DNA of 10,565 nt from an uncultured Candidatus Saccharibacteria bacterium (lineage in GTDB: Bacteria; Patescibacteriota; Saccharimonadia; Saccharimonadales; UBA4665). Position 1 is the stretch's first letter. Each line of letters opens with the position of its first letter. Where the stretch lies: positions 1 to 10,565 of the forward strand of contig CALKHY010000113.1 in assembly GCA_937988795.1 (NCBI GenBank), in the 5' to 3' direction. A model generated the notes under the pieces. That model ran no database searches. It saw only the letters and a list, made by a program, of their open reading frames with translations, and had not been told where the DNA came from. Position numbers and translations under genes: made by a program. This document shows, piece after piece, positions 23-6,027 of the stretch.

Positions 23-472
23 CGCCAGCTCTTCCTTAGAGTAGGTATTCACTACCTTCTCCGCAGTTAAACTTTGCGTTGTATCCATGCGCATGTCGAG
101 CGGCCCATCACTAGCGAATGAAAACCCACGACTCGCCTGGTTAAGGTGCGGTGACGACACGCCCAAGTCCGCCAATATCAAGTCAAAACGCTTGTTTTCG
201 CTCGCCAGCTCTTCACTGGCTAACAAAAAGTCCGCTTGCCTTACTTCTATACCTTGTTTCGCGAATCGTTCCTCTAGCGTTTTTATCGCTAAAGGATCCC
301 GATCTACGAGTACGGCTTTCTTAGGGGCTTTTGTTCTTTCCAGCACCACTGCCGCGTGTCCGCCGTATCCACCTGTCAGGTCGAGGTATGCTTCCCCTTC
401 CCGTGGGTTTAGATACTCGAGCACTTCGTTCAGCAGCACTGGTATGTGTTCTTGATATTGTGCTTGGGTCAT
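23..472 (-). CDS. rsmH: 16S rRNA (cytosine1402-N4)-methyltransferase RsmH, 3' end missing
   Basis: RsmH (MraW) uses SAM to methylate N4 of C1402 in the 16S rRNA P site and is normally the second gene of the dcw cluster. The visible 150 residues hold the family signatures: HIPVLLNEVL (9-18), a glycine-rich SAM loop LTGGYGGH (32-39), the acidic VDRDP (56-60), DLGVSS (102-107) and RGFSF...DGPLDMRMD (115-130). The start at 472 gives the normal family N-terminus. The frame runs unbroken to base 23 and is then replaced by adapter, so roughly the C-terminal half is lost at the contig end. There is no Shine-Dalgarno before the ATG. The gene follows mraZ on the same strand after a 342-nt structured gap, so it is either read through that RNA or started from a promoter right before the ATG. 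Confidence 0.96.
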
Positions 473-473
473 G

Positions 474-509
474 CTTGCAATTTTGTTTTGTTGTTTTTGT
501 TTTTGCAAG
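474..509 (-). promoter_or_regulatory. Hairpin abutting the rsmH start codon
   Basis: CTTGCAA (509-503) and TTGCAAG (480-474) form a perfect 7-bp stem with a 22-nt loop of only A and C. The stem ends one base before the rsmH ATG. It shares bases 508-509 with the outer end of the long helix of the upstream RNA, so the two compete slightly. It could modulate initiation on a message that lacks a Shine-Dalgarno; this role is inference. Confidence 0.4.
480..508 (-). promoter_or_regulatory. Possible leaderless promoter of rsmH
   Basis: On the minus strand, TTGCAA (508-503) and CAAAAT (485-480) are 17 nt apart, and the -10-like hexamer ends 7 nt before the rsmH ATG. Each hexamer matches the sigma-70 consensus at four of six positions, and the spacer is almost pure A with single C. 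The geometry equals that of the vapB promoter in this window. The match is weak and the A-rich composition makes chance matches likely. Confidence 0.35.
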
Positions 510-734
510 GTCACCTATTCAGCAGCCAACTTTTTGTTTTTGCAGTTTTTGTTTTTGTTTGATGGTCATTCATCTGGTGGTAGAGGCGAACCTCTAGCTG
601 GATGAATGCCCGTAAGTTGAGAGACTTATGTGTGAGGTGGAGTTTTGGGAGGTGTTCTTACGAACATGAAAGGTGCCAGGGTTTTGATCAGTGGTGCCCT
701 ATAAGCCACTGGTTGACTGCCGAATAGGTAACCT
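508..734 (-). ncRNA. Candidate structured RNA in the mraZ-rsmH gap (rsmH leader or independent RNA)
   Basis: Bases 712-734 and 508-530 form a 23-bp helix without a bulge. Three pairs (512/730, 521/721, 526/716) are G-U when read as minus-strand RNA and A-C on the plus strand, which assigns the RNA to minus. Inside, in transcript order, are: a 6-bp hairpin (706-711 with 689-694, 11-nt loop); a 5-bp hairpin with GUAA tetraloop (653-666); a 5-bp hairpin (613-628); and a compound arm (601-608 with 567-574, then 591-596 with 581-586 capped by UUCG). Linkers are A-rich with isolated C, as in unstructured RNA spacers. I see no long conserved reading frame across it. I find no RNase P, tmRNA, SRP or 6S signature. 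A named mraW RNA motif exists in the same position in Actinobacteria, but I cannot show relatedness. Confidence 0.65.
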
Positions 735-762
735 CGAGCCTTTGGCTGGGTTTTTCTATTCG
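721..762 (-). promoter_or_regulatory. Alternative hairpin competing with the long helix
   Basis: CGAATAG (762-756) pairs perfectly with CTATTCG (727-721), the latter being part of the 5' arm of the 23-bp helix. The enclosed segment contains a small AGCC-AAA-GGCT hairpin (747-737). The two foldings are mutually exclusive, as in a riboswitch or attenuator. The alternative stem is short (7 bp) beside 23 bp, so it would matter mainly before the 3' arm is transcribed. Confidence 0.35.
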
Positions 763-814
763 CGTTCCTTGCCGAATTGTTAAGGTGCCCTTTTTGGGTA
801 AGCAAATCAACGGA

Positions 815-1180
815 TTACGACGTGTCCGCCATAAGCCGCCAGTATTTGCCGACACGCACGGCCACGACCTCCTTTGTTATCCCTGCATAGTCCAGAAGAT
901 GCTGCTCCAGGGTAATGCGTCCTTGCTTGTCGTCAATGACGCCTTCCGTTTTCCCCATCCGGAACTGGACGTTCAGGTCGGCCGTCTTTTCGTCCAAGAT
1001 GTTACCCTGGAGCATCGGCTCGACCAGCTCATCCCATACCGACTTGGGGTACAGGTGCAGATACTTCTTGAACCCGCGGGTGATGACTACCCCGCTGGCA
1101 AACTCGTCGCGAAGTTCGGCCGGTATGGTCAACCGCCGTTTGTCGTCGAGCTTGCGCTGAAAGTAGTCCACCGTGGCCAT
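815..1180 (-). CDS. mraZ: Transcriptional regulator MraZ
   Basis: MraZ is a ring-forming DNA-binding protein with two SpoVT/AbrB-type half domains that heads and autoregulates the dcw cluster. This 121-aa protein shows both halves: DDKRRLTIPAELR near residues 12-24, LYPKSVWDEL near 43-52, and the second DDKQGRITL followed by a tail matching HLLDYAGITKEVVAVRVG. It is somewhat shorter than the usual length of about 140 residues because the C-terminal tail ends soon after the second repeat. The start at 1180 is supported by GAGGT a few bases upstream. Its promoter carries four phased boxes of the MraZ repeat type, so autorepression is expected. rsmH follows on the same strand. Confidence 0.95.
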   Translation of the reverse strand: MATVDYFQRKLDDKRRLTIPAELRDEFASGVVITRGFKKYLHLYPKSVWDELVEPMLQGNILDEKTADLNVQFRMGKTEGVIDDKQGRITLEQHLLDYAGITKEVVAVRVGKYWRLMADTS

Positions 1181-1238
1181 TCGTACCTCGTTAATTTGCT
1201 AGTGGTTTTTGTTTTTAATGGGTTTCCCTTTGTGGGTT

Positions 1239-1285
1239 ACCCACATTTACCCACTAACATGACTATACTACCCACCACTACCCAC
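1239..1285 (-). promoter_or_regulatory. MraZ-binding repeat array (four boxes)
   Basis: ACCCAC occurs at 1239-1244, 1249-1254, 1270-1275 and 1280-1285 on plus, that is GTGGGT on the transcribed strand. Start-to-start steps are 10, 21 and 10 bp, so all boxes lie near one face of the helix with one slot skipped. MraZ in other bacteria binds direct repeats of TGGG type with 5-nt spacers. An inverted copy at 1231-1237 makes TGTGGGT-T-ACCCACA a perfect dyad with the first box. Two boxes lie inside the -35/-10 spacer and two around or after the start of transcription, a geometry suited to repression. Confidence 0.85.
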
Positions 1286-1291
1286 TTACAA
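1262..1291 (-). promoter_or_regulatory. mraZ promoter
   Basis: TTGTAA (1291-1286) and TATAGT (1267-1262) on the minus strand are 18 nt apart. Transcription would start near 1255, giving a leader of about 75 nt before the mraZ ATG with its Shine-Dalgarno. The spacer contains two of the four MraZ boxes. Confidence 0.6.
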
Positions 1292-1327
1292 GTGGTTTAT
1301 GGGCCAAAACAGCGGTTCGAACGCAAG

Positions 1328-1365
1328 TTATCCACAGTTTTGTGCATGATCACAGGTTATCCACA
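1328..1365 (+). promoter_or_regulatory. Two perfect DnaA boxes upstream of mraZ
   Basis: TTATCCACA, the strict high-affinity DnaA box, occurs at 1328-1336 and 1357-1365 in the same orientation, 29 bp start to start. They lie about 35-100 bp upstream of the mraZ promoter, between it and the end of the 102-aa gene. There is no large box cluster, AT-rich unwinding region or dnaA/dnaN nearby, so a regulatory role for DnaA on the dcw cluster is more likely than a replication origin. Confidence 0.7.
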
Positions 1366-1370
1366 ACATA

Positions 1371-1405
1371 TAGCGCTAACCCTGTTCTTGTAAGCACTAG
1401 CGCTA
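1371..1405. repeat. Pair of TAGCGCTA palindromes
   Basis: The 8-bp perfect palindrome TAGCGCTA occurs at 1371-1378 and 1398-1405, 27 bp start to start, directly beside the DnaA boxes. The second copy includes the stop codon of the 102-aa gene. Two copies of an 8-mer within 35 bp suggest a protein-binding site, but the binder is unknown. Confidence 0.45.
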
Positions 1406-1711
1406 TTGCGACGCAGCCACAATTATTCGGGCGTGACTTGGCGTGTGCGACCTGTGGACAGTTTCATTCCGTAAATACGTACCCACCTTGCCGTAGCCGT
1501 GGTTGTACGCCTCGCGCAAAATGCCAAGTACCCTGCCATCACTTTTTTCCAAAGCCGCAGCCATCAGCAGCATCATCCCAAGCACGATAAACCGCTTGCG
1601 GAAGAAGTACTCCACCTTCAGGTGGAACGGGGTGTGGAGCACTGCTTCTATCTCGTGCTCGAATGCAATTATTTTTTCTGTGACCGTGTTTGTTTTGGTT
1701 TTTGTTTTCAT
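1403..1711 (-). CDS. Hypothetical protein, 102 aa, upstream of mraZ
   Basis: I do not recognise this protein. The N-terminus is lysine/threonine-rich (MKTKTKTNTVTEK). An amphipathic part and one hydrophobic stretch around RFIVLGMMLLMAAAL (roughly residues 40-54) follow, which could be a short membrane-associated helix. The C-terminal third is basic and polar and has no motif I know. Support for a real gene comes from a good promoter (TTGACT-17-TAATGT) ending 13 nt before the ATG and from its place between divergent radC and mraZ. The first codons resemble the A-rich linkers found elsewhere on this strand. The downstream end overlaps one of the TAGCGCTA palindromes. Confidence 0.6.
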   Translation of the reverse strand: MKTKTKTNTVTEKIIAFEHEIEAVLHTPFHLKVEYFFRKRFIVLGMMLLMAAALEKSDGRVLGILREAYNHGYGKVGTYLRNETVHRSHTPSHARIIVAASQ

Positions 1712-4593: not shown

Positions 4594-5370
4594 ATGGACC
4601 AATCGGCAATAATCAAAAAATATCTTGGTAAACTGGGTATCGAGACGGATGCGGTGGCAATATATTTAGAGCTGGTTAAACAGGGCTATTCCTCTGCCCT
4701 GCAGCTCTCCCGCGCCACTAAAATCAGCCGCACGCAGGTGTACCGCCATTTAGAGGCCTTGCAGCAGTACGGCCTGGCTAGTGCGGAACAGCTGAGTTAC
4801 GGCACGCTGTATCGGCCGATGCCCATCGAAAACATCGAGGGGTTGCTGGCCGCACGCGAGGCCGAAACCGCCGCCATCCGTAACAACCTCGATGCTATGG
4901 CCGCAGCACTCCAGGCAATTGCTGGCGGCAGCGGCCCCAAGGCCACCGTACAACATTACTACGGCCCGGCCGGGCTCAAGCAGGCGAACTGGAATATTAC
5001 CCGTGCCGACCATGAATTTAAGGTGTTCGAGGTCGCCCACATCTCGGTACACCACGACCTGGCTTTTGCCCGCCGCCACCGCGAGCGCGTAATTGAACGC
5101 GGCCTGACCAGCTATGACCTGACCAACGACACCATCGTCCGCGCGCAGGACATAGAACCCTACGAGCCTTCGCGCACCTTTTTCCGCCATATCGACCCCG
5201 AAATACTTACCATCAATTACGAAATTGTGCTGTACAACGACATCACCCTGCTAATCGACTACCACGCACAAATGGCTGTCGAGATGAAACACCCGGCCTT
5301 CAACCAAATGATGGCCCAGCTCTTTGACGCCATGTGGGCCCAAGCTACTCCGCTCGAGATAACACACTAG
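4594..5370 (+). CDS. TrmB-family transcriptional regulator
   Basis: TrmB-like regulators use an N-terminal winged helix, often for sugar uptake genes in archaea and CPR bacteria. Residues about 10-75 show the pattern: YLGKLGIETDAVAIYLEL, then ALQLSRATKISRTQVYRHL (recognition helix) and LQQYGL, followed by the wing. A helical linker (NIEGLLAAREAETAAI) leads to a C-terminal sensor domain with a YYGPAGL segment. The end of the sensor (IDPEILTINYEIVLYNDITL) resembles TrmB effector domains. The start at 4594 gives 258 aa and the normal family N-terminus. The 30-residue upstream extension crosses the operator and promoter and is rejected. Divergent placement from a membrane carrier with a shared palindrome suggests it controls both. 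The TAG stop overlaps the convergent vapC stop in CTAG. Confidence 0.88.
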   Translation: MDQSAIIKKYLGKLGIETDAVAIYLELVKQGYSSALQLSRATKISRTQVYRHLEALQQYGLASAEQLSYGTLYRPMPIENIEGLLAAREAETAAIRNNLDAMAAALQAIAGGSGPKATVQHYYGPAGLKQANWNITRADHEFKVFEVAHISVHHDLAFARRHRERVIERGLTSYDLTNDTIVRAQDIEPYEPSRTFFRHIDPEILTINYEIVLYNDITLLIDYHAQMAVEMKHPAFNQMMAQLFDAMWAQATPLEITH

Positions 5371-5771
5371 ACTAAGAGCTTCGCCGACCTGGCGCACTTT
5401 GCCAGTGTTTTATCGAACGTCCACAAGGGTGCTGCGCCGTTTAGCTCAGCATACGTAGTCAAGCAACAATCCTCAAACGACAAGCCGGGATTTTGTACAA
5501 ATAACGGCAGTGCTTTAGAAAACAATGCCCGATTGGCATTAATTTGCCCAAGCGACAGAAGCGCCTCGATCATTTCTGCAATTTGAGCGCGAGTTAATTC
5601 GTAATACCGCTCCAGCACGAATACAACCTCCACGATCGCCGTGTCCGCAACCGCAAGCTGGCTATCGATCTGCTCGTCAACCAGCCTTACGGCGGCAGCA
5701 TTTTGCTCGGGCACGTCGTTCAGTAGCAAGCGCAAAACAACATTGGCATCCAAAGAACCAGCAAACACCAT
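5367..5771 (-). CDS. vapC: VapC-type PIN-domain toxin
   Basis: PIN-domain toxins are Mg2+-dependent ribonucleases that cut specific RNAs when released from the antitoxin. This 134-aa protein has the four acidic positions: D8 in SLDANVVLR, E48 in AIVEVVFVLE, D101 in LSFEDCCL and D119 in LWTFDKTL. The start at 5771 has a strong GGAGGGG 9 nt upstream that lies inside the end of the antitoxin gene. It begins one base after the antitoxin stop, so the pair is translationally linked. The longer frame to 5810 overlaps the antitoxin and is not preferred. All key residues are present, so it is probably active. The stop overlaps the convergent regulator gene. Confidence 0.92.
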   Translation of the reverse strand: MVFAGSLDANVVLRLLLNDVPEQNAAAVRLVDEQIDSQLAVADTAIVEVVFVLERYYELTRAQIAEMIEALLSLGQINANRALFSKALPLFVQNPGLSFEDCCLTTYAELNGAAPLWTFDKTLAKCARSAKLLV

Positions 5772-5772
5772 A

Positions 5773-6027
5773 TTACAAATCCCCTCCTCGATGTTCCTGG
5801 TAGTAGGCATCGACGTCGGTCAAGGGCTTAATGCCTGGTTTTATATATTTGCTGAATTTCGCACTGAGCGCGGCAGCACTAACCGGCCTGCTAATCGTAA
5901 TTTCGCCCTTGCGCTCGTTAAAGCTAATTACCAACTTACCACCTTCTTTGGGTATGCCTAGCCTACGGCGCATCGCGGCCGGGATGGTTGTCTGCCCTTT
6001 TCGGGTGATGGTAATTACATCTTTCAT
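5773..6027 (-). CDS. vapB: VapB-type AbrB/SpoVT antitoxin
   Basis: The 84-aa protein has an N-terminal swapped-hairpin AbrB fold: ITRKGQTTIPAAMRRRLGI (about residues 7-25), then KLVISFNERKGEITISRP. The C-terminal half (LSAKFSKYIKPG to the acidic end DAYYQEHRGGDL) is the expected flexible toxin-binding tail. It is directly upstream of vapC with a 1-nt gap. Such antitoxins repress their own operon by binding palindromes; GCATTAC-N11-GTAATGC surrounds the -35. Its promoter ends 6 nt before the ATG, so the mRNA should be leaderless. Confidence 0.92.
   Translation of the reverse strand: MKDVITITRKGQTTIPAAMRRRLGIPKEGGKLVISFNERKGEITISRPVSAAALSAKFSKYIKPGIKPLTDVDAYYQEHRGGDL

Follow-up and report, generated by a model that had tools for sequence, protein, structure and literature searches.

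The spacer between mraZ and rsmH in a 10,565-nt stretch of DNA from an uncultured Candidatus Saccharibacteria bacterium (this whole stretch is referred to as the window) contains a conserved structured RNA domain on the minus strand at 506-736. The domain spans 231 nt from one arm of its closing helix P1 to the other, has homologues in the mraZ-rsmH spacers of 75/75 relatives, and is represented by two covariance models, R1 and R2. It is a new RNA family that is uncatalogued in Rfam: no Rfam family matched at E<=1 in the whole window, and none matched at E<=0.1 in the loci of nine relatives. A structured RNA between the two genes had been proposed in an initial annotation of this DNA, and our analysis confirms it and finds it larger than first stated. 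As that annotation had also noted, there is no signature of RNase P, tmRNA, SRP or 6S RNA, and ARAGORN detected nothing in the window, tmRNA included. The literature on RNAs of Saccharibacteria, Patescibacteria and the CPR, and on mraZ, mraW and boxA, yielded no description of the RNA, although one in subscription journals or bioRxiv is possible.

Both flanking genes lie on the minus strand. mraZ occupies 815-1180 (PF02381, E 9.7e-16) and rsmH (mraW), the 3' part of which is truncated by the contig end, occupies 2-472 (PF01795, E 2.1e-42). With the rsmH ATG at 472-470 and the mraZ stop codon at 815-817, the spacer covers 473-814, bearing out the 342-nt gap first reported. Positions 1-22 of the window read CTACACGACGCTCTTCCGATCT, which we take to be the tail of an Illumina adapter, and the contig end together with the last rsmH residues is therefore an assembly artefact. 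Upstream of mraZ, at 1240-1284 on the minus strand, are four TGGG boxes arranged as two pairs with 10-nt spacing, presumably an MraZ operator, accompanied by a promoter-like TTGTAA-N18-TATAGT. Farther away, a gene pair for a PIN-domain protein and a MazE-like antitoxin is present at 5367-6027 on the minus strand.

Structure and conservation of the RNA domain

For comparison, 24 MraZ proteins were aligned and 80 genome loci were collected, the best 80 of 225. The 120 MraZ relatives listed are at least 82% identical and by name include a few Candidatus Saccharimonadales and one Nevskiaceae; the closest genome loci are titled mostly Candidatus Saccharibacteria. Among the best 80 of 225 loci, rsmH follows mraZ on the contig in 75, and in the remaining five the contig stops 67 to 475 nt past the mraZ stop codon. 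The spacers of these 75 relatives are all long (271-754 nt), and all contain P1 as an ungapped 25-mer helix with 21-25 pairs. Counts of 76 spacers or 76 loci refer to the 75 relatives plus the window.

In the window, the minus strand of the spacer folds at -91.5 kcal/mol compared to a shuffled mean of -64.9 (z -6.1) with 0/100 shuffles as stable, while the plus strand reaches a z of -2.4 with 3/100 shuffles as stable. The strand was earlier assigned from G-U pairs in the closing helix, and the relatives bear this out: among 1,900 P1 cells from 76 loci, there are 234 G-U and 15 A-C combinations when read on the mraZ strand. Reading the opposite strand would exchange these two numbers, so the mraZ strand is the RNA strand.

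The long closing helix that had been described as 23 bp is indeed present, but its length is 25 bp, with a 5' arm at 712-736, a 3' arm at 506-530 and 25/25 pairs formed. It encloses 181 nt in the window and 164-310 nt among the 76 loci, giving P1-to-P1 folds of 214-360 nt. One P1 pair is a retained mismatch, in which the 3' base is G in 76/76 loci and the 5' base is G in 55, C in 11 and A in 10. Further stems lie inside P1, as anticipated, including the hairpin with a GUAA loop (653-666), which is absent from view in most relatives, and P3 (565-609), a variable long hairpin with a UUCG loop that is predicted by folding and differs among relatives. In addition, P2 is formed by CAGUGG (706-711) and CCACUG (689-694) and was scored as a helix in the covariation alignment, and AGGG (697-700), on the loop side, pairs with CCCU (678-681) in an H-type pseudoknot enclosed by P1 that is supported by covariation and by a swap test. 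Towards the 3' arm of P1 follow the M3 hairpin (613-628), with the loop CUCUCA, whose sequence AAGUCUCUC is invariant in the 22 rows of alignment A2 and altered in a few other loci, and a conserved A-rich linker with CAAAAAC repeats (531-561) that was compared across relatives. The pseudoknot, a boxA-like sequence at 775-788 and a nearly invariant unpaired core at 632-656 go beyond what was initially annotated.

Covariation supports this architecture. In a 22-row alignment, 94.2% of paired cells are complementary, compared to only 23-46% in controls with a slid alignment, and 21/33 scored pairs have changed on both sides, which 0/500 shuffles reach. By helix, these changes affect 15/24 pairs in P1, 2/5 in P2 and 3/3 in the main pseudoknot helix; one further, weak pseudoknot pair (43% paired) also changed on both sides. 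Compensatory change in the relatives is the opposite of the outcome that the initial annotation had named as speaking against a functional RNA. In swap tests, the P1 arms of the same locus form 23.3 of 25 pairs compared to 21.5 (sd 0.09) for swapped arms, with a maximum of 21.9 in 2,000 swaps, and the corresponding values for the pseudoknot are 11.2 and 10.0 (sd 0.22), with 0/300 swaps as high; in the latter test P2 was placed wrongly in some loci. We conclude that the domain has a conserved junction fold with covarying helices, as would be expected of a riboswitch.

The most conserved part is the unpaired core, AACACCUCCC-AAAA-CUCCACCUCAC, which consists of the motifs M1 (AACACCUCCC, 647-656) and M2 (ACUCCACCUCAC, 632-643). 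The sequence CACCTCCCAAAACTCCACCTCAC is exact in 70/76 spacers; of the other six, five differ in the length of the A-spacer and one by a substitution. Over the 23 nt compared, identity of the core is 95.6%, as against 32.7% at mraZ four-fold codon sites, where silent change is near saturation (2,485 pairs of 71 loci, five loci lacking an ungapped, near-full mraZ match having been left out). Nine deep loci (L126, L127, L129-L131, L133-L135, L137) have lost M1 and kept M2. Individual relatives elaborate on the region: L069 has an extra hairpin between M2 and the motif AUAAGUCUCUC, both of which are intact, and the RNAs of L224 and L225 contain three unpaired-looking motifs in series, UCCACCUC, UCCAUCUC and UUCCACC.

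Distribution and gene neighbourhood

Class and phylum in the following counts are those of genome G001, the Saccharibacterium of locus L003, which we take to be Saccharimonadia and Patescibacteria, respectively. Allowing three mismatches, the core matched 120/392 class genomes and 7/379 phylum genomes, and the reversed core matched one genome in each set. The core is found at one site per genome in 119/120 of the matching class genomes and at two sites in the other. Of note, absence of a core match does not mean absence of the RNA. Among 30 sampled genomes from the 272 class genomes lacking a match, 20 have mraZ, at 21 loci; one of these loci (L136) ends at mraZ, and in 20/20 loci with sequence there, CTCCACCTCAC is present behind mraZ. 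These 20 loci escaped the core match by a different spacer length or, in nine loci, by loss of M1. Consistently, model R1, which was run on 286 + 23 genomes, identified the RNA in 22/23 class genomes, and R1 or R2 identified it in 34/37 class genomes within the phylum sample, all 379 genomes of which were searched with R2; G291, G322 and G357 gave no match to R1 or R2.

Outside the class, R2 matched 8/342 genomes and gave no match in the other 334 sampled. Three of the eight had been used to build the model (G028, G199, G237) and four are new (G135, G148, G064, G106); we reject the weak match in G302 as chance, since it lies in a stretch without mraZ, rsmH or the helix. In the four new genomes, the RNA lies 12-85 nt past the stop codon of an ORF, and Pfam identifies the ORF before the RNA as MraZ in 7/7 genuine outside-class genomes, at E 6e-37 or lower. 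Because R2 is blind to MraZ, and MraZ nevertheless precedes the RNA each time, the family extends to other branches of the phylum. At 51 rsmH loci outside the class, R2 matched only the two from which it was built and, weakly, L193 (E 1.2e-4). Inspection by eye identified an mraZ-like ORF just 2-77 nt from rsmH in at least eight of them. In L172, L181, L183 and L211, also outside the class, the gap ahead of rsmH was seen by eye to contain an inverted repeat resembling P1 plus CAAAAAC tracts or a loop with CACCUCC or ACCUCC; these gaps are possible distant relatives unmatched by R2. Viral contigs contained no relative as judged by mraZ or the exact core, and plasmids gave no match.

The RNA sits at the mraZ/dcw boundary in all loci read. 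The initial annotation had left open whether it is a cis-regulator of rsmH or an independent RNA; both possibilities are still to be weighed, but the RNA is not a leader of rsmH alone. In three outside-class genomes (G148, G064, G237), mraZ and the RNA are followed by a small ORF other than rsmH, rsmH is on another contig, and there is no RNA match (E<0.1) at the displaced rsmH; in G135 and G106, rsmH does come after the RNA. Conversely, eight loci come from class genomes in which no mraZ was matched; in 8/8 the RNA lies directly upstream of rsmH and no mraZ is present within the 3.5-4.2 kb read, with the reservation that these genomes may be incomplete. In 7/8 of these loci, the exception being L162, a raw pattern count identified a promoter-like TTGNNN-N17-TANNNT, in one case with N18 as the spacer, which precedes the RNA model match by 56-67 nt. 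Because the RNA persists without either neighbour, it belongs with the start of the dcw operon rather than with one adjacent gene. Two candidate assignments in this region were discarded: the label FtsL for the ORF after the RNA in L224, L225 and L170, which has at best a sub-threshold Pfam match or no family, and a terminator function for the hairpins that follow the RNA in L224 and L225, as they have no clean U run.

The boxA-like sequence and the region towards rsmH

Between mraZ and P1, the window contains the boxA-like sequence GCACCUUAACAAUU (775-788, minus strand). The strict form of the published consensus, given as GYTCTTTAANA in the account of boxA consulted (PMC5725501), is found between the mraZ stop codon and P1 in 16/76 spacers (0.02 after block-shuffling) and a relaxed form in 54/76 (block-shuffled mean 0.17), while none of the 76 spacers has boxA between P1 and rsmH over a similar number of bases. 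The 22/76 spacers in which the relaxed pattern is missing mostly have apparent near-variants, and boxA is weak in the deepest lineages. Among the relatives' rRNA leaders, 4/11 (L138, L139, L140, L142) contain a boxA-like sequence at a distance of 120-213 nt ahead of the 16S mark; the other seven, one with unsettled orientation, have no match to the pattern. In the 1.0-Mb chromosome of one relative, a boxA pattern ending in AATT occurs four times, each time intergenic: in the 16S leader, at the RNA locus and at two other sites. A looser pattern also occurs four times in this chromosome, once inside a coding stretch. Of the two further boxA-like sites (L246:5140 and L277:19302), one precedes a gene for a secreted-protein-like product and the other lies ahead of a short intergenic segment whose end forms a hairpin with a run of Ts.

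This organisation resembles that of an rrn unit. In pre-16S rRNA, boxA is described as preceding a closing helix that holds an RNase III site and for which a length of more than 17 bp is critical (PMC10250234, in its treatment of this helix). Here, too, boxA and then a long closing helix frame a domain, and the helix exceeds 17 bp, with 21-25 of 25 pairs in 76/76 loci; it differs in enclosing 181 nt instead of 16S rRNA and in lying in the dcw operon. The one relative checked has a gene for RNase III (TIGR02191). Because boxA and a closing helix exceeding 17 bp occur as in pre-16S rRNA and RNase III is encoded in a relative, we infer that the RNA may be made by Nus-assisted transcription and released by RNase III. 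The weak or missing boxA in 22/76 spacers, in the deepest lineages and in 7/11 rRNA leaders counts against this interpretation of boxA, and so does Rho, which one motif did not find in one relative. A boxA outside rRNA and ahead of a protein gene has a precedent in the suhB leader of gamma-proteobacteria, in which it mostly lies within 50 bp of the start (PMC5725501); in our case, by contrast, a fold of 214-360 nt comes after boxA, and the portion of that source dealing with suhB mentions no conserved RNA domain.

The region between the RNA and rsmH has three lineage-specific arrangements, as might be found in the platform of a riboswitch. The 3' arm of P1 in the window contains AGGUGA (511-516), which in deep lineages is positioned as the Shine-Dalgarno sequence of rsmH. 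Specifically, six deep loci (L126, L127, L130, L131, L133, L134) have AGGUGA, AGGUAA or AGGUGG in this arm, with the AUG of rsmH in frame 7-8 nt beyond it; L130 has a second in-frame AUG further downstream. Because this Shine-Dalgarno sequence lies within the arm, P1 would mask it until the helix is cut or opened. In most class members the distance to the rsmH start is greater. Overall, this start lies from 11 to about 244 nt from AGGUGA, in scattered frames, arguing that hiding of the Shine-Dalgarno sequence is not general. Two groups of loci are characterised by a -10-like hexamer at the rsmH start. Such a hexamer (at least 5 of 6 positions) right before rsmH was identified in 28/100 loci, the four loci without a set start having been excluded, compared to a mean of 8.8 and a maximum of 17 in shuffles, and a perfect TATAAT precedes rsmH in 6/8 of the loci without mraZ. 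In others, including the window, an A-rich linker parts P1 from rsmH. Three further ideas about this region were not supported. A UUG or upstream-ORF start just after AGGUGA in P1 fails on scattered frames and intervening stop codons; an alternative pairing of CACCU in the core with AGGUG in the 3' arm of P1 is at odds with lineages that have AGGUAA or AGAUGA and retain the same M2; and pairing between the core and the Shine-Dalgarno sequence of mraZ is at odds with the lack of GAGGU upstream of mraZ in 74/76 loci, a rough count as some starts are mis-set.

A varied output beside a constant domain looks like one of two things: a domain for sensing or processing whose output has varied, or an RNA that is independent of the output. 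Riboswitch leaders similarly have a conserved domain closed by P1, a pseudoknot, invariant unpaired residues and a variable output side, but the RNA matches no catalogued riboswitch class. Riboswitch P1 helices are usually far shorter than 25 bp. The mraW RNA motif is located upstream of mraW, and the initial annotation suggested that the RNA might be its analogue; the position upstream of rsmH is shared in 75/75 spacers, but there is no match to the covariance model of RF01746, the phylum is a different one, and the RNA also occurs without rsmH downstream. That motif, from Actinomycetales, appears in its original report as a structured RNA named for the mraW gene (Weinberg 2010, PMC2864571, entry for this motif).

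Candidate functions of the RNA domain

Our tentative working hypothesis, based on sequence comparisons, is that the RNA domain is transcribed from the mraZ promoter under Nus antitermination, that RNase III likely cuts P1, and that the domain likely sets the output of the dcw operon in cis. Specifically, transcription from the mraZ promoter would run through the spacer into the domain, and the boxA-like site would load Nus factors and thereby bring about antitermination. RNase III would then cut P1 and release the domain as in pre-rRNA, and a factor binding the CACCUC core may decide the outcome. In this way, the RNA would act in cis to set the expression level of the division (dcw) operon downstream, and in the deep loci P1 would additionally control access to the rsmH ribosome-binding site by hiding it until the helix is cut or opened. 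Two observations count against regulation in cis. The -10-like hexamer at rsmH means that rsmH could bypass the RNA, and a 25-bp helix would probably be too stable for ordinary ligand switching.

Nearly as likely is a freestanding, trans-acting noncoding RNA that is probably co-transcribed with mraZ for supply only and released by RNase III at P1, with the core acting on a partner elsewhere. Such a function is consistent with the 95.6% identity of the core next to 32.7% at mraZ four-fold sites, with the occurrence of the RNA in the absence of mraZ behind a promoter-like site of its own in 7/8 such loci, with its persistence where rsmH has moved, and with its single place in 119/120 genomes with a core match. 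However, it occupies the same operon boundary in every locus read and, to our knowledge, trans-acting RNAs of such spread rarely stay at one operon boundary. The two possibilities, in cis and in trans, lie close together because the variety on the output side fits both.

It is improbable that the RNA mediates autoregulation by rRNA mimicry, in which M1 (ACACCUCCC) would likely imitate the 16S segment ACACCGCCC, so that RsmH binds its own message. This segment presumably contains the RsmH target C1402, and the best sense match of M1 across the whole 16S rRNA is CACACCGCCC (8/10) in 3/3 genomes. This match was spotted post hoc, however; moreover, M1 does not occur wherever the RNA does, having been lost in the nine deep loci that keep M2, and the RNA stays beside mraZ when rsmH is elsewhere.

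Still more improbable is an anti-Shine-Dalgarno small RNA in which several CU-rich loops block ribosome binding on many messages. Each RNA has two or three CU-rich motifs, and the M3 loop pairs over at least 7 consecutive positions, counting G-U, with 41 start regions compared to 8 control stretches among the 915 genes of one relative, although its own shuffles reach 43. The core is not enriched at starts in this test (M2, 7 vs 7; M1, 9 vs 4 with shuffles up to 10; AGGTG, 11 vs 11), while true Shine-Dalgarno words are (AGGAG, 95 vs 4); because shuffled 16S tails score like the real tail, only the position control is informative. Also, the 16S tail in the tested relative is UUACCUCC and not CACCUCC. 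The presence of UUACCUCC in 6/9 genomes read likewise weakens mimicry of the 16S 3' end as a candidate. At its 3' end, 16S rRNA has GGAUUACCUCC in L138-L140, L142, L144 and L145 and GGAUCACCUCC in L141, L143 and L146.

Finally, a DNA-level inverted repeat without RNA function, such as a mobile element or terminator, would account for an inverted repeat over 231 bp but is refuted by the strand-specific covariation (with 234 G-U vs 15 A-C in P1); the single place per genome and the lack of a terminator-like site in window positions 400-1450 also count against it.

A more general proposal, possible if doubtful on the present comparisons, is that the family would constitute a new class of large noncoding RNAs of bacteria, present in Saccharibacteria and other CPR branches. 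Such an RNA would be made in the manner of a miniature pre-rRNA, with boxA, a long helix and release by RNase III, at the entrance to the division operon, and would have kept its core nearly unchanged in the class. The RNA is found in nearly all sampled class genomes with a 23-nt core that is 96% identical, and yet it is missing from Rfam. It brings boxA into the dcw operon and, if the proposal is true, would link cell division in ultra-small symbionts to transcription control of the ribosomal type. The RNA may offer a handle on the control of division in Saccharibacteria and their relatives, and perhaps on its coupling to ribosome-type transcription.
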